Origin: Cryptosporangium minutisporangium
GTDB lineage: Bacteria > Actinomycetota > Actinomycetes > Mycobacteriales > Cryptosporangiaceae
NCBI RefSeq assembly: GCF_039536245.1
Contig: NZ_BAAAYN010000046.1
Location: 1-46,991 of the forward strand
DNA: 46,991 nt
Direction: 5' to 3'
A model generated the notes under the pieces. It worked only from the letters and a program-made list of their open reading frames with translations, was not told where the DNA came from and searched no databases. The translations under genes and the position numbers were made by a program. Shown here piece by piece: positions 1 to 9,365 of the stretch. The stretch's first letter is position 1; each line of letters opens with the position of its first letter.

Positions 1-23
1 ACGTTGGTCTCGTAGTCGCTCAT
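1..23 (-). CDS. 5' end of an unidentified protein (partial)
   Basis: Only seven codons are inside the window (reading M-S-D-Y-E-T-N on the minus strand). The start is supported by an AGGAG ribosome binding site 8 bases before the ATG. The family cannot be named. It lies downstream of, and in the same direction as, the three-gene ATPase/nuclease cassette, with a gap of 153 bases, so it may be a separate unit or the last gene of that cassette. Confidence 0.55.
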
Positions 24-176: not shown

Positions 177-3100
177 CTAGTCGGACCCGGTTCCGGCCCC
201 GGCTCGTGCCACCACTTCCTCGGTCGTCAGCGGGCTCTTCGGGTGGTAGCTCAGGCACAGCGGCGTCTGTACCTTGACGAACGAGGATGCATCGGGCGCG
301 GCGTAGAACTGCCCAGTGCCCAGCCGTCCGACGTCCGGAACGCTGCCACCCTTCGCCTTCGCCATCTCCTGGGCCGCGCTGATCTGCACCGGCGCGTTGA
401 GAAGCCCGAAGAACTGGGTCGCCGCGTTGCCCGGGATCCGGTTGTGCAGCCCCTTGGGTGCCTGGGTCGCGAAGACGAGACCGAGCCCGTACTTCCGGGC
501 CTGCGACGCGAGCGCCAGCGTGCTCTGCGTGCACGCGGTCATCGCCCCGGACGGTGCCAGCGTCTGCGCCTCGTCCATCACGAACAGGCCTCCGAGTGGC
601 CGGTCACCCGCCGGATTCTTCTTCACCCAGGCGAAGAGCGCCATCTGCAGCTGGTTGACGAAGCTCTGCCGCTGCTCGTCGGAGGCGAGCCCGACCAAGC
701 TGATCACCGACACCCGAGCGCGCTTCCCCGGCGGCGGCGTCAGGAGCACTCCCGGGTCGACCGGGGTGCCCTGCCCACCGAACAACGGATCGTTGACGAC
801 CGCCGCGTTGAGGTCCTGCGCGAGCTCGGCCGCGATCCTCTCGGCGTTGTCGAGCCGGCTGGCCTCGTCCGGGAACGCCGCCAGTACCCCGATGAACTCC
901 CGCAGCGTGACGAAGCCGCTGCGGGCGAAGAACCGCAGCGCCTCGGTGAGGACCGCCCGCCCCCGAACCGCTCGTGCCGCGCCCCCGTCCACCCGGGCGC
1001 GCGGAGCCAGGGTCGCGACCGCCGCGTCGATCGCGGCGTCGAACTCGTCCGGATCGTCGCGGACGCTGGCGAAGTCGGGCAGCGGCTGGAAGCTCAGCGC
1101 CCGGCCGGCCTGACGCCGCGGCGTCCAGACGACGACGTCGGTGCCGTCCAGGTACGCCGCGGCCTTGTCCGCGTCACCGGGCCCCCAGCCCGGCGGTGTC
1201 ACCGGCCAGGCGTCACCGAGCCGGGCGAGGTCGTTGTTCGGGTCCAGGACGATCGAGGAGACGCCCTGGAGCGCGGACTCCTCCACCAATCGTCGGATCA
1301 GCACGGTCTTGCCGGATCCGGACCCGGCGAAGATCGCGGTGTGCTTCCGCAGGGACTCCAGGTCCACGCTGATCGGAGCCCCGCCCTCGATCGCCCGCCC
1401 GACGACGATGTGCGGGACCGCCGGAAGGGGCTCTGGGGTTGGCACCGGATCGGGGCGGTCCACGGTCGTCCTCCCGTGGCCTGCGGACGGGTCGGACAGG
1501 GCAGTCAGGTCGGACAGGGCGTCGCGCAAGAACCCGACTCGGTCCGTCGGCCGACGGCTGGTGAGCCAGGCCTGGAGATGGTTCGGACTCTCCTCGAGCA
1601 GCACTCGAAGAGCGGCCAGTACCTGGAGGTCCTCCTTCGGCACTTTTGGATCGCGTCCGCCTTTGTCGTAGAACGCGTCCAGCTCCTGCCGGGTCTTCGA
1701 TCCCGGCTTCGCCTTCCAATCCGCGTTACGCAGCAGGAACAGCCGGCGCTTCGGCACGCCTTGGGAGAGTCCTGACATCGTGCACGCCGCCCGGATCCGG
1801 GTCAGGGCGGCGACGGGGTGCTGCGCCGAGATCGCGCGGAACGCCCAGTGCGCTTCGTCCTCGGTCGCCTCGTCGAGCGTGAGTCGTAGACGCGCGTGCA
1901 GCGGCGGCTTGACGCCCGGCAGCGGGTCGAACGAGAACCGCTTCTCGGCGTCCTCCTGTTCCAGGATCCATGCCTCCAGCCCGGCGTTGAGCAGGGCGGG
2001 CATCACCGCGTCCTCGGTGGATTGGGCGAGTGCGTGGCTGACGTCCGCGGACGCGATCAGTTGCTCGAACCGTTGGTCGAGCGCCTCCATGGAATCGGGC
2101 GAGATCGGGACCGGACCGGGATCGGACACCGTCTCGACGAGTGCGGTGAGCTCGGTGACCTCGCCCCGGTCGACGCAGGCACGGATGTGCTGGTCGACGC
2201 GTTTCAGCAGTTCGCGGGGCGTGAACTGGCCGGCTTCGGCGAACGCGGACGGGTCGATCGGCCAGGTCGGGTACGGCGGCTCGAACCGGACCCGCCGGTA
2301 GTAGCGATCGAACCGCTTCTCGATCAGGGCCCGCCCGAACTCTTCGGTGGGAATCGACTGCAGGTGCGGCGTGACGCGGAAGCGGTCCTGGACGGTGTCG
2401 ATCGCCTCTTCGGTGATGAGTATCCACGTGGTGGGCGTGCAGGTGAGGACCGTCAGCGTCCGACGGGTGCTCTCCCGGAGCGACATCAGGCCTTCGGCGA
2501 TCTGGTCCAGCGCCGCGTTGTCCACGGTCGCGCCCGAGCCGGCGGACTTCGCCCCGGTCGTGGCGGACGTGACGATCGGGTCGATCTGGTCGACGGCGAC
2601 GACGCTCGGCCCGGTCAGCGCGAGCAGGCGGGACAGGTCGCGGACGATGATCCGCGCGCTCTTCACCATCCGGCCGATGCCCCAGGCGGCGCGCTCACCG
2701 GTCTCGTCCGGCTGCGACAGCAGGAAGTTCTGGCCGACGTCCTGCGCCTGCAGGTCGAAGGAGCCGTACAGCACGAGCGCGCGTGCGGTGTCCTGGCAGT
2801 CCCGCGCGATCTGAGGGTCGACGCTCTGCAGCGCGCGGATGAACGACGTGAGCGCGGCCTCGGTGAGCGGCTCCTCGCCGATGACCTGTGGGAGAAGTTC
2901 CGGGGCCAACCCGCCCTCGTCGGCCAGGCGCGTCAGCAGCGTCTGGAGCTGGGGCTCGCGACGCTTCACCCGACGGGTCAGCCCGTCGAGAATCGACATC
3001 ACGGTGCTCGGCCAGAACGCCGCGGGGTCGACGAGGCTGATCAGGAAGAAGTAGCCGTCGCGGCTCTGGACCTGCTCGCGGAGCCAGCCCATCAGATGGG

Positions 3101-3311
3101 TCTTTCCGGTGCCGCGCTGTCCCTGGATGACGACGCCGAGCGGGCTGCTTCCGCTGCTGTCGAAAGCGTCCTCCAGGCCGTCGAGCACGGCGTCGATCGC
3201 ACGCGTGTGCAGCCCGTCCACATGGAACGGGTTGGGATTCCAGACGTCGTCCTGGGTCGGTGCCGAGCTCAGCCGGACCGTGCGCAGGGCGCGTAGCTCG
3301 GTGTCGCTCAT
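177..3311 (-). CDS. Double ATPase: N-terminal AAA-type domain fused to C-terminal HerA/FtsK-like domain
   Basis: The protein has 1044 residues when started at the ATG at 3311, which overlaps the stop of the upstream gene (ATGA). The N-terminal half carries a Walker A motif GQRGTGKT (about 64-71) and a Walker B-like VVAVDQID (about 237-244), as in AAA/STAND or Cdc6-like ATPases. The middle (about 400-620) is unrecognised. The C-terminal half carries a second Walker A, GSGSGKT (about 663-669), a Walker B VMDEAQ (about 911-916) and a following ATQAPKGL sensor-like stretch, typical of HerA/FtsK/DUF87 ATPases. HerA-type ATPases pump or remodel DNA and often partner nucleases in prokaryotic defence. 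Here the gene is translationally coupled to a probable winged-helix protein and a DUF559 nuclease-domain protein, so the three probably act as a complex. Defence is an inference; repair or plasmid maintenance are alternatives. Confidence 0.85.
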   Translation of the reverse strand: MSDTELRALRTVRLSSAPTQDDVWNPNPFHVDGLHTRAIDAVLDGLEDAFDSSGSSPLGVVIQGQRGTGKTHLMGWLREQVQSRDGYFFLISLVDPAAFWPSTVMSILDGLTRRVKRREPQLQTLLTRLADEGGLAPELLPQVIGEEPLTEAALTSFIRALQSVDPQIARDCQDTARALVLYGSFDLQAQDVGQNFLLSQPDETGERAAWGIGRMVKSARIIVRDLSRLLALTGPSVVAVDQIDPIVTSATTGAKSAGSGATVDNAALDQIAEGLMSLRESTRRTLTVLTCTPTTWILITEEAIDTVQDRFRVTPHLQSIPTEEFGRALIEKRFDRYYRRVRFEPPYPTWPIDPSAFAEAGQFTPRELLKRVDQHIRACVDRGEVTELTALVETVSDPGPVPISPDSMEALDQRFEQLIASADVSHALAQSTEDAVMPALLNAGLEAWILEQEDAEKRFSFDPLPGVKPPLHARLRLTLDEATEDEAHWAFRAISAQHPVAALTRIRAACTMSGLSQGVPKRRLFLLRNADWKAKPGSKTRQELDAFYDKGGRDPKVPKEDLQVLAALRVLLEESPNHLQAWLTSRRPTDRVGFLRDALSDLTALSDPSAGHGRTTVDRPDPVPTPEPLPAVPHIVVGRAIEGGAPISVDLESLRKHTAIFAGSGSGKTVLIRRLVEESALQGVSSIVLDPNNDLARLGDAWPVTPPGWGPGDADKAAAYLDGTDVVVWTPRRQAGRALSFQPLPDFASVRDDPDEFDAAIDAAVATLAPRARVDGGAARAVRGRAVLTEALRFFARSGFVTLREFIGVLAAFPDEASRLDNAERIAAELAQDLNAAVVNDPLFGGQGTPVDPGVLLTPPPGKRARVSVISLVGLASDEQRQSFVNQLQMALFAWVKKNPAGDRPLGGLFVMDEAQTLAPSGAMTACTQSTLALASQARKYGLGLVFATQAPKGLHNRIPGNAATQFFGLLNAPVQISAAQEMAKAKGGSVPDVGRLGTGQFYAAPDASSFVKVQTPLCLSYHPKSPLTTEEVVARAGAGTGSD

Positions 3312-4009
3312 GCGCCCTCGATCGCGATCAGGTGCTTCTTCTGATTGCCGATGACGACCGCCGCCGCCTTCTCGGGCTTCGACAGCGACTTCTTGTTCAT
3401 CTCCGGGACCAGCGTGACGTCGGGAGCGCTGTTGAGGGCGATCAGCGCGGTGTCGACGTCGGCGCGGGGGACGTCGCCCAGTTGCTGGCGCAGGGCCGAC
3501 AGCAGCACCCATCCGTTCGGCCCGTCGGTGAGCCGCCAGTAGGTACCCCGGATGCGCTCCGCCACGTCGGCCGGAGCCTCTTCGGCCGGAGCCTCTTCGG
3601 CCGGAGCCTCTTCGGCTCCGTCGGCCGGAGGCTCCACGTCCGAGACGTCGGTCGAGGGCGCGCGGAAGAGGTCGAACAGCCGAAGATCAGTGCGCGCCAG
3701 GTAGCGGTCGAGCTGCGCGGCGAAGCCCAGCGCGACCGCCCGGCCCCACCGTCCGGTCGGCAGGTCACCGGTCAACTCCGTCCGGGCCCGCGCCCAGCCC
3801 TTCTCCTCGAGCTCGTGGAAGATCTGGTTTCCGAACCCGGCCACTTTCCCCGAGCTGACGAGCTTGAGGTCGTTGAGCCGGGCCTTGTCCTTGCCGGTCA
3901 GCGTCACCCCGAAGCGATCCTTGAGATCGTTGTTCCCGACCTGCGCGGTGACCGCCAGCAGGAGAAGCAATGCGGCGCGCTGCTGGGTGGTCAGGGCGTC
4001 ATTCGACAT
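3308..4009 (-). CDS. Probable two-domain winged-helix adaptor with acidic repeat linker
   Basis: The protein has 233 residues; the ATG at 4009 is chosen because it follows the end of the upstream gene closely and gives a compact N-terminus. I do not recognise a named family. Residues 1-80 look like a helical winged-helix fold (T-x-Q-Q-R-A-A-L-L-L-L-L opening, then G-N-N-D-L-K and an E-L-E-E-K-G-W helix). A linker of alternating A-P-A-E-E repeats follows, then a second basic winged-helix-like domain (about 155-233) with R-G-T-Y-W-R-L and a lysine-rich end. The linker is encoded by three perfect 15-base tandem repeats. The gene overlaps both neighbours: the nuclease-domain gene by 11 bases and the double ATPase by 4. 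A bridge between nuclease, DNA and ATPase is an inference. Confidence 0.75.
   Translation of the reverse strand: MSNDALTTQQRAALLLLLAVTAQVGNNDLKDRFGVTLTGKDKARLNDLKLVSSGKVAGFGNQIFHELEEKGWARARTELTGDLPTGRWGRAVALGFAAQLDRYLARTDLRLFDLFRAPSTDVSDVEPPADGAEEAPAEEAPAEEAPADVAERIRGTYWRLTDGPNGWVLLSALRQQLGDVPRADVDTALIALNSAPDVTLVPEMNKKSLSKPEKAAAVVIGNQKKHLIAIEGA
3571..3615. repeat. Three perfect copies of a 15-base tandem repeat inside a coding linker
   Basis: The unit ccggagcctcttcgg occurs three times in a row at 3571, 3586 and 3601. It encodes the acidic A-P-A-E-E linker of the probable adaptor protein. In-frame 15-base repeats can expand or shrink without breaking the frame, so linker length may vary between strains. 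Confidence 0.9.
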
Positions 4010-5072
4010 GGCTGGATCCTTCCGAGCGTCCCTCGACGCGTCGCGTGGTGAGGAAGAGTTCGAGCTGATGGGCGACGGCGTTGACGTCACCGAGCACCTG
4101 GTCGTTGGTGAAGCGCAGAACGGCGTAGCCCGCGGTCTGGAGGAGGACGTCACGCGCGCGGTCCGCCGCGTACTGGACCTGCCTCCGGTGCTCCGGGCCG
4201 TCGATCTCCACCGCGGTGCGTTCGGCCGCCCAGAGGAGGTCGACGCGGATCGGACTGATCAGTGGGCCGAAGGAGAACGTCTGGTTCCAGGCGCGGCCGC
4301 CGGCCCAAGCGTGGCCGGCCAGCACCTTCTCCAGTAGGCACTCGGCGACGCTGTTCGGGTTGGGCTGTCCGGCCAGCGCGGGAAGCGCCAGTGCCCCGGT
4401 CCGCGCGGCGCGGTCCGACACATCGTCGGGTGCTTGCCCGGTGAGTGCCTCCACGGCGGCCGGAAGCCGAACGCGCTGCGAGTGAATGCGGTCGACGGCC
4501 GGGAACGCGGCGCCGGTGAGCCACACGCCTCCGAGCGCGCCGCGGAACGCGAGCCACTCGACGGCGGCCACCAGCGCGGACTGCTGGGTGGCTGGTAGGC
4601 CGTCCGGCACCTCGACGACGAGGACGACGTCGGCTCGGGCATAGGCGGCTTCGAGGACGCGGACCAAGCCGGCGGCGCGGATTTCCGGTGGGAAGGACGC
4701 GGCCGAGCGGGTGCCGGTCAGCGCGCGGGCGGCGAGGTCGGCGAGGAAAGGGCCGAAGTGATGGGTGCGACCGGCCAGACGAGACGCGAGAAGCCGGACC
4801 GCCGGAACGTTGGCGCCTCCCGGCCCGGAAATCCCCTCGGCGTCGGGAAGCCACGCCGGGAACAGCGCGACCGCGGCCTCCTCGAGCGCATCGAGAACTT
4901 CGCCGACGATCGCGGCCTGCGTGGCGGTGGTGATCGGCCGGTAGGTGACGACGACCGGTGCGTCGGCCGGAAGCGGATCGAGAGCGACGGTCAGCGCGTC
5001 AGCGTCCACATCGTCGAGGTGGACGACTCGACCACGGGGTAACGACGTCCACCACGCCCCGACCGACCCCAC
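3999..5072 (-). CDS. Protein with C-terminal DUF559/Vsr-like endonuclease domain
   Basis: The GTG at 5072 is preferred because GGGGAG sits 5 bases upstream; it gives 357 residues (an in-frame GTG at 5135 would add 21). The last 100 residues resemble DUF559, the Vsr-like branch of the PD-(D/E)XK nucleases: a leading glutamate in S-V-A-E-C-L-L-E, then R-V-D-L-L-W, then the T-A-V-E-I-D-G strand, then R-A-R-D and V-L-R-F-T-N-D. The first 240 residues do not match anything I know. It is the first gene of a three-gene overlapped operon with the adaptor and the double ATPase. It is likely to cut or recognise DNA as the effector of that module. The domain call is fairly sure; activity and role are inferred. 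Confidence 0.75.
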   Translation of the reverse strand: MGSVGAWWTSLPRGRVVHLDDVDADALTVALDPLPADAPVVVTYRPITTATQAAIVGEVLDALEEAAVALFPAWLPDAEGISGPGGANVPAVRLLASRLAGRTHHFGPFLADLAARALTGTRSAASFPPEIRAAGLVRVLEAAYARADVVLVVEVPDGLPATQQSALVAAVEWLAFRGALGGVWLTGAAFPAVDRIHSQRVRLPAAVEALTGQAPDDVSDRAARTGALALPALAGQPNPNSVAECLLEKVLAGHAWAGGRAWNQTFSFGPLISPIRVDLLWAAERTAVEIDGPEHRRQVQYAADRARDVLLQTAGYAVLRFTNDQVLGDVNAVAHQLELFLTTRRVEGRSEGSSHVE

Positions 5073-5252
5073 CCGTACTCCCCGTCGCCCCCGAGGCCTT
5101 GCCGAATGGCTAGGCCGCTGACCCGCACTGTCCACGATGGCAGGTGCTGGGCGGTCTGGCGTGGGCGGGACGGGTTATGTGCCGGAGAGTCGACCGGCGT
5201 ACCCGCCGTTCGTCACCGAACTCCGTCCGGCCGGTGGAGGGCCCCGGACACG

Positions 5253-5290
5253 AAACCGCCCCGCCCGGAGGGGATGGGCGGGGCGGGGTT
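5253..5290 (-). terminator. GC-rich stem-loop after the small basic gene
   Basis: An 11-base perfect inverted repeat pairs 5256-5266 (CCGCCCCGCCC) with 5276-5286, around a 9-base loop. Read on the minus strand the stem is followed by TTTCG, so it fits termination of the lysine-rich gene that ends at 5300. It also separates that gene from the cassette start region. Confidence 0.75.
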
Positions 5291-5299
5291 CCGGTTGGA

Positions 5300-5434
5300 T
5301 CAGGCCTTCGCCTTGGCCTTGCGCTTGGTCTTCTTGGCGTCGCGCTTCATCGCCTTACCGGTGCTCTTGGCCTCGCTCTTGGCGGTCTTCGCGGTCTTCT
5401 TCACGTCCCGCTTCACGGCCTTACCGGTCGCCAT
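5300..5434 (-). CDS. Small lysine-rich basic protein (44 residues)
   Basis: This short gene runs ATG to TGA. The product begins M-A-T-G-K-A-V-K-R-D and contains two copies of a basic unit, T-G-K-A-V-K-R-D-V-K-K-T and T-G-K-A-M-K-R-D-A-K-K-T, separated by A-K-T-A-K-S-E-A-K-S. About 40% of residues are lysine or arginine, there are no aromatic residues, and the rest is mostly alanine, threonine and serine, as in histone-tail-like or RNA/DNA-coating peptides. The strict in-frame repeat, clean codon use, and a hairpin terminator 10 bases past the stop argue that it is real. The ribosome binding site is weak (AAGGGCGGA). Its function is unknown; nucleic-acid binding is inferred from charge only. 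Confidence 0.65.
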   Translation of the reverse strand: MATGKAVKRDVKKTAKTAKSEAKSTGKAMKRDAKKTKRKAKAKA

Positions 5435-5902
5435 CGTGATCCGCCCTTCGTCGAAAAACCTGACGATCGTCGGCTACCCGCGGTGACCCCGTGCGGAAAC
5501 CTCCGGCGCGGAAAAGCTGTCGACGCCGCGCGGCACCGGTGGCGTCGTGACCCTCCCGATCATGGCGCCACTGTGGAGAGTCCGGACGGACCACGCCGCC
5601 GGTCCGGCGCCGTGCGATCCGCTCGGCCCACTCCCGGTGCGCGCAGCGTCGGACGTGATCGTGTCGTGCGTCCGGAAGTGAGGGAACAGGAAGGGAACTC
5701 CGCCTGCGGCGAGTGGCGCATTCCCCGCGCCGAGCGGTCCGCCATGATCGGTTCAGCGGCGATCTGTGTAACCGAACGGCAACACTCACTTGACCTGCTC
5801 CGTGTTAACGCTAACAATCACGGCCAGCGCGGTGACTCAGGCCACAACCTACCTGGGGCACGGGTGTCGCTGGGATGCCCACGCGGGAACGGAGGCGGAG
5901 CT
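5435..5902. other. Intergenic region upstream of araR
   Basis: These 468 bases lie between the divergent small basic gene and araR. I see no convincing gene in any frame; the open frames lack ribosome binding sites. It holds the araR promoter and operator near its right end (5790-5818). About 355 bases between 5435 and 5789 have no assigned function. Confidence 0.6.
5790..5818 (+). promoter_or_regulatory. araR promoter with LacI-type operator over the -10 region
   Basis: A -35 box TTGACC (5790-5795) and a -10-like AACAAT (5813-5818) are 17 bases apart. The 14-base operator TGTTAACGCTAACA (5803-5816), with TGTTA/TAACA arms, overlaps the -10. It closely matches a second site in the araB start (7041-7054, 13 of 14 bases). 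LacI/AraR-type repressors bind sites of this shape, so autorepression is likely. Confidence 0.75.
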
Positions 5903-6991
5903 GTGGTCGAGTCGACCGTGAGACCGGTGGACGGTCGCGACTCCACCGGTGTCGACGACCAGCCGGCCGACCCCGCAGAGCGTCGGGTCGTCATGGCGGA
6001 CGTCGCGCGCCTGGCCGGGGTTTCCCACATGACCGTGTCGCGGGTCCTCAACGACAGCACGGCGGTGAGTGCGACGACCCGCGCGCGGGTCCGAGCGGCG
6101 ATGACGACGCTCGGCTACCGCCCGAACACGGCCGCACGCGCCCTGGCGACCGGCCGCACGCGCCAGCTCGGCGTGGTGAGCGTCAACACGACGCTGTTCG
6201 GCCCGGCGTCGATGCTGGTGGCGATCGAGCGGGCCGCTCGCGACGCGGGCTACGCGGTGAGCATCGCAAGCCTGCGCGAGCCGGACCAGCGGTCGCTCGA
6301 CGAAGCGTTCGACCACCTGACCGCCCAGTCCATCGAGGGCATCGTCGCGATCACGCCGCGCGCCGGTATCGCCGCCGCGTTACGCCAGGCGCCGCGGGGC
6401 GTTCCGCTGGTGGCGGTGGAGGGCGGCGAGGGCCCGATGCCGACCGTCGCGGTGGACCAGTACCTCGGTGCGGTCCGGGCCACCCGGCACCTGATCTCGC
6501 TGGGGCACCGGCGGATCGCCCACATCGCCGGCCCGGACGACTGGCACGAGGCGGGTGAGCGCGAGCGCGGATGGCGCGACTCGCTGTCCGCCGCCGGGCT
6601 GGAGCCGACCGCGCCGCTCCGCGGTGACTGGAGCCCGCGCGCCGGGTACGAAGCGGGCCGGGCGCTGGCCGAGCGTCGGGAGCACACCGCGGTGTTCGTC
6701 GCGAACGACCAGATGGCGATCGGCGTGCTGCGGGCGTTCGCGGAGGCCGGTATCGACGTGCCGGGCGACGTGAGCGTCGTCGGATTCGACGACATCCCCG
6801 AGGCGGCGTACTTCGCGCCGCCGCTCACCACGCTCCGGCAGGACTTCGGCGAGGTCGGCCGGCGCAGTCTCGCGCTGCTGGTCGAGCAGGTCGAGGGTGC
6901 ACCCCGCTCGGACAAGCGGATCGTGATACCGCCGGACCTGGTGGTGCGCGACAGTACGGCGCCGCCGGGACTCGCGTCCGGCGCGAACTGA
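5903..6991 (+). CDS. araR: LacI-family transcriptional regulator of arabinose genes
   Basis: The GTG at 5903 is chosen because GGAGG sits 7 bases upstream; the frame stays open further upstream but without signal. The product has 362 residues. The LacI helix-turn-helix is near residues 34-55 (V-A-R-L-A-G-V-S-H-M-T-V-S-R-V-L-N), with the hinge A-A-R-A-L-A-T-G and a periplasmic-binding-protein-like sugar domain ending in V-S-V-V-G-F-D-D-I and T-T-L-R-Q-D. It is first in an operon with araB (32 bases downstream) and araD. Two near-identical operators, one over its own promoter and one inside araB, suggest it represses the whole unit and is released by arabinose or a phosphorylated derivative. 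The effector is inferred from context. The symbol araR is functional, not proof of orthology to Bacillus AraR (a GntR-LacI hybrid). Confidence 0.88.
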   Translation: MVESTVRPVDGRDSTGVDDQPADPAERRVVMADVARLAGVSHMTVSRVLNDSTAVSATTRARVRAAMTTLGYRPNTAARALATGRTRQLGVVSVNTTLFGPASMLVAIERAARDAGYAVSIASLREPDQRSLDEAFDHLTAQSIEGIVAITPRAGIAAALRQAPRGVPLVAVEGGEGPMPTVAVDQYLGAVRATRHLISLGHRRIAHIAGPDDWHEAGERERGWRDSLSAAGLEPTAPLRGDWSPRAGYEAGRALAERREHTAVFVANDQMAIGVLRAFAEAGIDVPGDVSVVGFDDIPEAAYFAPPLTTLRQDFGEVGRRSLALLVEQVEGAPRSDKRIVIPPDLVVRDSTAPPGLASGAN

Positions 6992-7023
6992 ACAGACCTC
7001 AGCCACCGACCAGGGAGGTGACC

Positions 7024-8712
7024 ATGGCTGATGCACGAGATGTTAACGCTCACAAATATGTGGTCGGCGTGGATTTCGGGACGTTGTCCGGGCGTGCGCT
7101 GGTAGTGCGTGTCGCGGACGGTGTCGAGGTGGGTACGGCCGTGCACCCGTACTGGCACGGGGTGATCGATTCGGCCCTGCCGGTGACCGGTGCGGTGTTA
7201 CCGCCGGACTGGGCGCTGCAAGAGCCGGGGGACTGGCTCGACGTGCTGCGCACGGCGGTGCCGGCCGCGGTGGCGAACGCGGGAATCGATCCGGCCGACG
7301 TGATCGGGATCGCGACGGACTTCACCGCCTGCACGGTGTTGCCGACGACGTCCGACGGGACGCCGCTGTGCCGCGTAGCGGGGTTCGAGGGTCAGCCACA
7401 CGCCTATCCGAAGCTCTGGAAGCACCACGCGGCGCAGGGCCAGGCCGACCGGATCAACGCTCTGGCGCACGAACGCGGTGAGCCGTGGATCAATCGTTAC
7501 GGCGGCAAGATCTCCAGCGAGTGGGAGTTCGCGAAGGGCCTGCAACTGCTGGAGGAGGCTCCGGACGTCTACGCGGCGACCGAGCGGTGGATCGAGGCGG
7601 CGGACTGGATCATCTGGCAGTTGTGCGGCGTCGAGACCCGGAACCGGTGCACGGCGGGGTACAAGGGCATCTTCCAGGACGGCGTCTGGCCGTCGCCGGA
7701 GTACCTGGCGGCGCTCAACCCCGGGTTCGCCGACTTCGTGACCGACAAGATCGAGCATCCGCTCGCGTCCCTCGGCGACCGCGCCGGAGGGCTGACCGCG
7801 CAGGCCGCGGAGTGGACCGGCCTGCCCGAAGGCATCGCGGTGGCGGTCGGCAACGTCGACGCGCACGTCACCGCCCCGGCCGCCCGCGCGATCGCCCCCG
7901 GGCAGCTGCTCGCGGTGATGGGCACCTCGACCTGTCACGTGATGAACGGGGAGACGCTCGCCGAGGTGCCGGGCATGTGCGGCGTCGTCGACGGGGGGAT
8001 CGTCGCCGGGCTCTACGGCTACGAGGCCGGGCAGTCGGGCGTCGGGGACATCTTCGGCTGGTTCGTCGACAACCAGTTACCGCCCGCCTACCACGACGCC
8101 GCGGCGAAGAAGGGCCTGGACCCGCACGAGTACCTGTCCCGGCTCGCCGCCGAGCAGCCGGTCGGCGCGCACGGCCTGCTCGCGCTGGACTGGCACAACG
8201 GCAACCGGTCGATCCTCGTCGACCACGAACTGTCCGGCGTGCTGATCGGCGCGACCCTGGCGACCAAGCCGGAGGACATCTACCGGGCGCTGGTCGAAGC
8301 GACCGCGTTCGGGACCCGGATGATCGTCGACGCGTTCACCGACGCCGGCGTCCCCGTCGACGAACTCGTGGTGGCCGGCGGGCTGCTCAAGAACCGGTTC
8401 GTGATGCAGGTCTACGCCGACGTCACCAACCGGCCGCTGTCGATCATGACCACCGAGCAGGGCCCCGCGCTCGGCTCGGCGATCCACGCTGCGGTCGCCG
8501 CCGGCGCCTACCCCGACGTCCCCACCGCGTCGGCCGCGATGGGCCGGGTGAAGCGGGCCGCCTACCGCCCCGACCCGGCCCGCGCCAAGGCCTACGACGC
8601 CCTCTACGCCGAGTACCGCACCCTGCACGACTACTTCGGCCGCGGCACCGAACCCGGCGGCAACGACGTCCTCCACCGCCTTCGCCGCATCCGGAACGAG
8701 GCCCGCGCATGA
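7024..8712 (+). CDS. araB: L-ribulokinase
   Basis: The protein phosphorylates L-ribulose to L-ribulose 5-phosphate in L-arabinose use. It has 562 residues, the usual length for AraB, and belongs to the FGGY kinases: an N-terminal V-G-V-D-F-G-T-L-S-G-R phosphate-binding loop near residue 15, A-T-D-F-T-A-C-T for substrate, and a C-terminal V-V-A-G-G-L-L-K-N-R-F adenosine motif. The ATG at 7024 follows GGGAGG by 5 bases; a GTG at 7018 is inside that ribosome binding site. An operator-like TGTTAACGCTCACA covers codons 7-11, so the repressor may also act as a roadblock inside the gene. Its stop overlaps the araD start (ATGA). No isomerase gene araA lies nearby. Confidence 0.95.
   Translation: MADARDVNAHKYVVGVDFGTLSGRALVVRVADGVEVGTAVHPYWHGVIDSALPVTGAVLPPDWALQEPGDWLDVLRTAVPAAVANAGIDPADVIGIATDFTACTVLPTTSDGTPLCRVAGFEGQPHAYPKLWKHHAAQGQADRINALAHERGEPWINRYGGKISSEWEFAKGLQLLEEAPDVYAATERWIEAADWIIWQLCGVETRNRCTAGYKGIFQDGVWPSPEYLAALNPGFADFVTDKIEHPLASLGDRAGGLTAQAAEWTGLPEGIAVAVGNVDAHVTAPAARAIAPGQLLAVMGTSTCHVMNGETLAEVPGMCGVVDGGIVAGLYGYEAGQSGVGDIFGWFVDNQLPPAYHDAAAKKGLDPHEYLSRLAAEQPVGAHGLLALDWHNGNRSILVDHELSGVLIGATLATKPEDIYRALVEATAFGTRMIVDAFTDAGVPVDELVVAGGLLKNRFVMQVYADVTNRPLSIMTTEQGPALGSAIHAAVAAGAYPDVPTASAAMGRVKRAAYRPDPARAKAYDALYAEYRTLHDYFGRGTEPGGNDVLHRLRRIRNEARA
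7041..7054 (+). promoter_or_regulatory. Second AraR/LacI operator, inside the araB coding start
   Basis: TGTTAACGCTCACA differs by one base from the operator at 5803-5816. It lies 17 bases into araB, in a place where a bound repressor would block elongation from the araR promoter or block a promoter in the 32-base araR-araB gap. Both copies keep the TGTTAACGCT core. Confidence 0.7.
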
Positions 8713-9365
8713 GCACGATCGCCGACCTCCGGAAAGAGCTCGTCGGGCTGCACCACGAGTTGATCCGCTGGAATCTCGTCGTCTGGACGGCCGGAAACGT
8801 CTCCGCCCGGGTTCCGGGCGAGGACCTGTTCGTGATCAAACCCAGCGGCGTCTCCTACGACGACCTGACCCCGGAGTCGATGGTGGTCTGCGACCTCGAG
8901 GGTCGTCTGGTCGAGGGGGACCTGTCCCCGTCGAGTGACACCGCCGCACACGCCTACGTCTACCGGCACCGGCCGGACGTCGGGGGAGTAGTGCACACCC
9001 ACTCCACGTACGCGACGGCGTGGGCGGCGAGGGGTGAGCCGATCCCCTGCGTGTTGACCGCGATGGCCGACGAGTTCGGCGGCGAGATCCCGATCGGGCC
9101 GTTCGCGATCATCGGCGACGACTCGATCGGCCGCGGCATCGTCGCGACCCTGGAGAACCACCGCTCGCCGGCCGTCCTGATGCGCAGCCATGGCCCCTTC
9201 ACGATCGGTAAGGACGCGAAGGCCGCGGTGAAGGCGGCGGTGATGTGCGAGGACGTGGCTCGAACGGTCCACATCGCGCAGTCGGCGGGCCCGGTCGAAC
9301 CCGTCGACAAGGCGTCGGTCGACCGGCTCTACGACCGGTACCAGAACGTCTACGGCCAGCACTGA
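8709..9365 (+). CDS. araD: L-ribulose-5-phosphate 4-epimerase
   Basis: The enzyme converts L-ribulose 5-phosphate to D-xylulose 5-phosphate, feeding the pentose phosphate pathway. It has 218 residues, slightly short of the 230 of E. coli AraD. Class II aldolase/epimerase zinc ligands are visible as H96 and H98 in H-T-H-S-T-Y-A and a later H161 in S-H-G-P-F-T-I-G-K. The N-terminal W-T-A-G-N-V-S-A-R and K-P-S-G-V-S-Y phosphate-binding motifs are present. The ATG overlaps the araB stop by 4 bases, so it is translationally coupled. A hairpin terminator follows at 9377-9418. Confidence 0.93.
   Translation: MSTIADLRKELVGLHHELIRWNLVVWTAGNVSARVPGEDLFVIKPSGVSYDDLTPESMVVCDLEGRLVEGDLSPSSDTAAHAYVYRHRPDVGGVVHTHSTYATAWAARGEPIPCVLTAMADEFGGEIPIGPFAIIGDDSIGRGIVATLENHRSPAVLMRSHGPFTIGKDAKAAVKAAVMCEDVARTVHIAQSAGPVEPVDKASVDRLYDRYQNVYGQH

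Follow-up and report, generated by a model that had tools for sequence, protein, structure and literature searches.

Introduction

HerA- and FtsK-type motors have been proposed to intercept invader DNA in transit, an idea put forward for the HerA/FtsK capture systems (Rakesh, Aravind and Krishnan, 2024, PMC10853773) and since restated (Rakesh and Krishnan, 2026, PMC12839542). In the sections of the 2024 paper considered here, these systems combine HerA with an AAA+ ATPase of the Orc/CDC6 type, winged helix-turn-helix (wHTH) proteins and a restriction endonuclease (REase). An inactive REase lies between the AAA+ core and a C-terminal wHTH, the active REase comes from one of two families, one of them of the AbiJ type, and a subset of the operons has a separate gene with 2-4 wHTH domains. 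Related Orc/CDC6 ATPases are linked or fused to TIR, STAND and other domains. According to PMC11291478, assembly of DUF4297 on the HerA hexamer activates the nuclease and gives protection against phages; in the passages of PMC7159879 and PMC8195603 considered here, the word HerA occurs once each, within a reference. Here we describe a cassette of three overlapping genes in a 46,991-nucleotide stretch of DNA from Cryptosporangium minutisporangium (contig NZ_BAAAYN010000046.1, positions 1 to 46,991; "the window" denotes this whole stretch), which encodes a DUF559 nuclease, a tandem winged-helix protein and an ATPase with both an AAA and a HerA domain. We think that the cassette is probably a counter-invader system, directed against phages or plasmids, of the HerA capture kind and with exchangeable effectors.

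The HerA/FtsK capture systems are the nearest published kind. With those described in the consulted sections of PMC10853773, the cassette shares a HerA/FtsK motor (DUF87 in all 22 aligned members of gene 3, with intact Walker motifs), an AAA+ ATPase, a restriction-type nuclease and a multi-wHTH protein, which is likewise encoded by a separate gene and has two winged-helix-like domains in its structure model. It differs in that AAA and HerA are fused in one chain (22 aligned members), that the nuclease is a DUF559 protein with an N-terminal domain of its own, and that separate partner genes are swapped for TIR, AIPR/AbiU-type or trypsin-STAND-WD40 genes. Where the capture systems have the inactive REase insert, the cassette has a conserved segment with no sequence relatives in the PDB. 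The terms "DUF559" and "Vsr" do not appear in the main text of PMC10853773 as seen, although its supplementary loci may include the layout, and the sections examined describe neither a DUF559 partner nor its exchange for AIPR/AbiU-type or trypsin proteins. We found no open-licence paper (bioRxiv lay outside the scope) with both DUF559 and DUF87, and two in which HerA and DUF559 both occur. With an ATPase of Orc/CDC6 type, an inactive REase insert and an REase of one of the two families each no more than possible, the cassette is not a proven member of these systems.

Other described systems are more distant. DUF4297-HerA and SIR2-HerA share with the cassette the combination of HerA and an effector, and DUF4297 assembles on the HerA hexamer (PMC11291478, in part). 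However, DUF4297-HerA has two components, whereas the cassette adds an AAA module, a tandem winged-helix protein and a different nuclease; SIR2 and DUF4297 were absent from the Pfam matches of the cassette proteins. The BREX-related capture (BRC) systems, as presented in PMC12839542, have in common with the cassette HerA/FtsK, an Orc/Cdc6-type AAA+ ATPase and a multi-wHTH protein, but also contain PglZ, DUF6079, STAND and DUF4007, none of which the three proteins matched in Pfam (the neighbourhoods were not searched for them). For MADS, only the HerA domain matched a PADLOC model (mad8, its best match there, E=8.7e-19), and the other two proteins had no PADLOC match. The first-pass annotation had called the cassette a system that it could not name. 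This agrees with the lack of any named system in PADLOC or NCBIfam that matches it, but the general kind has been described (PMC10853773).

Results

The three genes lie on the minus strand, with the nuclease gene (gene 1, 3999..5072) followed by the winged-helix gene (gene 2, 3308..4009) and the AAA-HerA gene (gene 3, 177..3311). As annotated at first pass, genes 1 and 2 overlap by 11 bases (3999..4009) and genes 2 and 3 by 4 bases (3308..3311). The fixed stoichiometry that had been deduced from these overlaps does not follow; overlaps of this sort suggest translational coupling. The arrangement is not due to chance, because the same order recurs in Actinomycetota, in a Hyphomonadaceae metagenome-assembled genome (MAG) and on a Methylobacterium plasmid.

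We compared 92 HerA loci, including that of the window, collected by a scan of one genome per species (29 loci), an order-wide search and a plasmid search. A winged-helix gene was found directly before HerA in all 92 loci (partial or cut short in L027, L028 and L101). Of the 65 loci that were measured, 37 show an overlap of 4 bases between the two genes and 19 an overlap of 1 base. In the order-wide survey, 54 of 298 genomes carry HerA and 55 the winged-helix gene; the nuclease, searched with the full-length query at E<=1e-15, occurs in 18. All 54 genomes with HerA also carry the winged-helix gene, and in the 55th (G146) this gene sits on a 3-kb contig. All 18 nuclease copies adjoin a winged-helix gene, with HerA on another contig in G190. 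The constant pairing, together with the presence of the nuclease in 18 genomes versus HerA in 54, identifies the winged-helix/AAA-HerA pair, and not the trio, as the conserved unit. The three-gene order proposed at first pass was thus recovered by the genome survey, but the nuclease is one of several partners.

The distribution of the pair is patchy. Beyond the 54 of 298 genomes in the order, 6 of 396 genomes in a phylum sample were positive, all from the same order, and the per-species scan also gave positives in Streptosporangiaceae and in one MAG each of Frankia and Hyphomonadaceae. Among 72,556 plasmid records, three hold the cassette family (Methylobacterium, Tsukamurella and Nonomuraea). 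The Methylobacterium record is typed as a mobilizable plasmid; the other two look chromosomal, since in Tsukamurella the copy is surrounded by ribosomal genes and in Nonomuraea the record has a length of 11.9 Mb.

The genes beside the pair vary between loci. The DUF559 nuclease was found in 41 of the 92, two of which also have a STAND-like gene. In 18 loci a ParA-TIR-CATASP gene lies directly upstream, in each case together with a TIR gene, and 10 loci have a divergent trypsin-STAND-WD40 gene, accompanied by Trypco1 in 9. An AIPR/AbiU-type gene just downstream (3 loci), a STAND-like gene without nuclease (2) and SEFIR alone (1) were less frequent, and two loci are cut by a contig end, the nuclease of L101 being located on L129. 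To name the domains, one member of each kind of partner was scanned against Pfam and PADLOC. The AIPR/AbiU-type member matched AIPR with E=1.4e-29 and AbiU with E=4.9e-76. The label "STAND-like" is our assumption; one such protein had no Pfam match. In the WD40 protein we likewise presume a trypsin part, which has weak PADLOC support, and a STAND part. Judged by these domains (ParA/TIR/CATASP, TIR, SEFIR, AIPR/AbiU and Trypco1), the partner genes appear to be of immune type.

ParA-TIR occurs at 19 places in 17 of the 298 genomes, and at 18 of the 19 it stands immediately before the winged-helix gene, the exception being a partial match in G222. It was never found together with the nuclease in the 92 loci, and the 17 genomes with ParA-TIR and the 18 with the nuclease do not overlap. 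Mapped on a HerA tree of 89 rows (L027, L101 and L128, cut by contig ends, were dropped), the partner labels required 16 changes compared with a mean of 45.4 after shuffling. The nuclease label needed 12 changes, ParA-TIR 2 and the trypsin gene, which occupies one side of a branch, 1. The trees come from quick searches and have long branches (L093, L105, L021 and others). Based on these label changes, the nuclease seems to be the widespread partner, with a few replacements and several losses.

Genes of the SEFIR-NPCBM type were also seen in L083-L088, L091, L111, L113, L116 and L120, facing away from the TIR genes and preceding the winged-helix gene at a distance of about 2.3-2.5 kb; the one in L120 stands alone, 239 bases away from the winged-helix gene.

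Gene 3 encodes a protein of 1044 residues, delimited by its open reading frame (ORF), Pfam matches and alignment. Both the AAA part (AAA_16, E=1.3e-8) and the HerA part (DUF87, E=5.3e-11) exceeded the Pfam cut-offs and AAA_22 matched as well, which substantiates the annotated fusion of the two ATPases in one chain. Among the 22 aligned members, AAA_16 was found in 21, and AAA_22, like DUF87, in 22. The Walker A motif of the AAA domain (QGQRGTGKTH, 3096..3125, minus strand) retains G64, G67, G69 and K70 in 69 of 70 loci, with one gap. Across the two ATPases, between 68 and 70 of the 70 loci retain the key Walker residues. The HerA domain (201..1409, minus strand; Walker A at residues 663-669, Walker B at about 909-916), defined by DUF87 and conserved residues, is the most conserved part of the protein. 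The matches to solved structures are mostly HerA-type proteins, there are weak matches to TrwB and VirB4 models, and the NCBIfam model HerA_antiphage scored 17.1 bits against a cut-off of 800. Between the two ATPases, residues 426-600 (1512..2036, minus strand) form a segment that stands out by alignment conservation and whose profile found no sequence relatives in the PDB (best E=0.21). The ORC-CDC6-like family PF24389 scored 16.3 bits in gene 3, below its cut-off of 27, and was found in 7 of 22 members at E<=0.01; a PF24389 search of the source genome gave no matches.

The DUF559/Vsr-like protein of gene 1, supported by Pfam, AlphaFold2 and alignment, has 357 residues when started at the GTG at 5072, the likeliest start; the longest alternative begins at an upstream GTG at 5135. 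Homologues begin three codons inside the 5072 start, and alignment and structure model used 4002-5063, three codons short of it. The DUF559 assignment made at first pass was confirmed (PF04480, E=1e-11, 45.1 bits against a cut-off of 20.6), with the domain at 4023..4370 (minus strand), whereas the roughly 230 residues ahead of it had no Pfam family match. The AlphaFold2 model (predicted local distance difference test (pLDDT) 87.1, predicted template modelling (pTM) score 0.83) shows this N-terminal domain as alpha/beta. The top Foldseek match of the protein was the endonuclease-like structure 3hrl (TM-score by target 0.82, E=0.021). Of 43 aligned rows, 41-42 retain the nuclease core residues D, E-x-D and H; the others have gaps, except for one row in which R replaces the E, suggesting that the active site is intact. 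That the N-terminal domain is an inactive P-loop ATPase is at most possible: the P-loop-type Foldseek matches were weak (E from 0.03, probability <=0.72), and a comparison by hhalign detected no kinship of this domain to the AAA-HerA protein.

For the 233-residue protein of gene 2, neither Pfam nor PADLOC nor NCBIfam gave anything at E<=1. In its AlphaFold2 model (pLDDT 89.7, pTM 0.56) the order of helices and strands can be read as two winged-helix-like domains, an N-terminal (3770..3997) and a C-terminal one (3311..3574, both minus strand), joined by a low-confidence acidic linker of EEAPA repeats. The top Foldseek matches, which bear on the N-terminal domain, were regulators of the MarR/ArsR type (best E=2.6e-3, none below 0.001). 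Model and matches bear out the earlier description of a winged-helix protein in the middle of the cassette. Among 28 members, weak Pfam matches occurred in one member each, two of them to winged-helix models. The winged-helix profile also hit Glr1262 (E=6.3e-4) and many calmodulins (E from 0.003), weak matches that we presume to be chance. Winged-helix matches distant from HerA were noted at G082:C1:6625321, G159:C13:85709, G068:C4:3393106, G234:C19:12843 and G076:C42:169537.

The window has a GC content of about 70% in a genome of 9.2 Mb. It starts at contig base 1, and the sequence before that base is unreadable. Outside the three core families, genes were called with a simple GC-frame caller, and the calls include false ORFs. 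Next to the cassette, positions 5144-9365 hold genes that probably serve the use of arabinose or ribulose; we presume that they encode a regulator of the LacI type, a sugar kinase of the FGGY type and a protein resembling class II aldolases. FGGY-type kinase homologues also lie near the cassette in the same-genus loci L064-L066. On the other side, an ORF from window base 22 was considered as a fourth gene and rejected as a separate acidic-repeat protein, because its counterparts are separate genes 182 (L064) and 154 (L066) bases after HerA. This downstream gene (window positions 1-22, minus strand; after 12891 in L064) encodes many repeats of the DxDxDG type, which we take to be calcium-binding-like, and the stretch upstream of it looks conserved in the genus. 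In genus g9 the upstream neighbours (the c25 reductase, c48 and others), presumably housekeeping genes, were dropped as partners.

In Tsukamurella (L104:3879-19252, NZ_LR134464.1), the nuclease/winged-helix/HerA cassette is located between rplN and rpsQ in the ribosomal protein cluster, accompanied by a VapB-PIN pair and a DEAD/DEAH helicase. We take the pair in L100 to lie beside the same ribosomal genes, and in L079 the cassette is near homologues of them (clusters c72-c74). In L018 (2103-7382) and L033, a gene with a weak AAA_23 match, just under the cut-off, and two co-directional genes stand beside the nuclease cassette. The PADLOC matches of scanned neighbours included LmuA and LmuB (Lamassu), which we think are these L018/L033 genes.

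Discussion

The observations at hand are gene linkage, intact motifs, predicted folds and the exchange of partner genes. We favour the interpretation of the cassette as a counter-invader system because of the linkage of the pair, its swapped partners of immune type, the kept motifs, the patchy distribution and the resemblance to a kind already described. In such a system, the AAA-HerA protein would form a ring that moves double-stranded DNA, with its AAA domain sensing or loading, and the winged-helix protein would bind DNA and connect the motor to the effector. Invading DNA would be drawn to the nuclease and then cut. In relatives, the same core might trigger TIR proteins, probably causing NAD+ loss, or effectors of the AIPR/AbiU or trypsin-STAND-WD40 type.

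The cassette could simply be a new member of the Orc/CDC6-HerA capture systems already in print, an operon layout made up of their parts. The parts list of AAA+, HerA, REase and multi-wHTH is indeed the same in the sections of PMC10853773 considered, and the AAA_16 and AAA_22 matches among the gene 3 members fit this, but the subthreshold PF24389 score and its lack of matches in the source genome do not; moreover, residues 426-600 have no sequence relative in the PDB that would reveal an inactive REase insert, and the main text as seen lacks "DUF559" and "Vsr". We regard this reading as rather unlikely. A role in DNA end processing or chromosome maintenance comparable to HerA-NurA, and thus in repair and not in immunity, draws on the combination of HerA and a nuclease as an archaeal end-resection theme (PMC12977600, in part), on neighbours kept in the genus of the window and on genus g9, where no partner was recognised beside the pair in 7 of 8 loci. 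A repair module is unlikely, however, given that HerA occurs in no more than 54 of the 298 genomes surveyed in the order, that the partners include TIR, AIPR/AbiU-type and WD40/Trypco1 proteins, and that NurA is absent from the Pfam matches of the nuclease and of the other two cassette proteins. If the cassette were what is left of a machinery for conjugative or plasmid DNA transfer, with HerA as coupling or pumping ATPase, this would explain the weak TrwB and VirB4 matches and the mobilizable Methylobacterium record. Against this stand the mere three positives in 72,556 plasmid records, two of them chromosomal-looking, and neighbourhoods in which we noticed no genes for transfer, although no search was aimed at them. 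We consider this origin highly improbable.

Several points weigh against our interpretation as a counter-invader system. HerA with a nuclease can also mean DNA repair. No partner was recognised in 15 of the 92 loci, so the pair may act alone. The exchange of partners appears, on the tree, to rest on few independent events, as ParA-TIR needs 2 changes and the trypsin gene 1, and the trypsin-STAND-WD40 gene, being divergent, may belong to a neighbouring system. In the window's genus, the cassette adjoins the sugar genes common to L064-L066, and no defence gene was noticed beside it, although without a family search. More generally, 70 neighbours matched 41 PADLOC families and 70 controls matched 3, but this is a weak test because the scans covered no more than 70 of the 200 neighbour ORFs and 70 of the 215 control ORFs, and because the counts are of families, not proteins, of which most of the 25 listed among the 41 are versions of PD-T4-6. 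Phage records gave no cassette matches. A search of viral contigs, made with just the AAA part, yielded 330 stretches that matched the patterns, and 0 of these were confirmed. Finally, the C-terminal part of the winged-helix profile had 5 matches away from HerA in the 298 genomes, and this domain may also occur in other proteins.

Even with these reservations, a broader role can be envisaged. The pair may be a general, mainly actinobacterial DNA motor that senses invaders and plugs into exchangeable effectors, an extension that we hold tentatively and at somewhat less than an even chance. If it is true, a single DNA-translocation sensor would lead to DNA cutting, NAD+ loss or proteolysis, depending on the lineage. 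How DNA translocation by HerA becomes an immune response is largely an open question in the field of defence, and a fixed motor-adaptor pair with natural partner swaps would make it possible to tell the sensing part from the killing part through a comparison of variants from related, harmless actinobacteria. A DUF559 family that, in 298 genomes at E<=1e-15, is found only beside the winged-helix gene would thereby gain a role as well.

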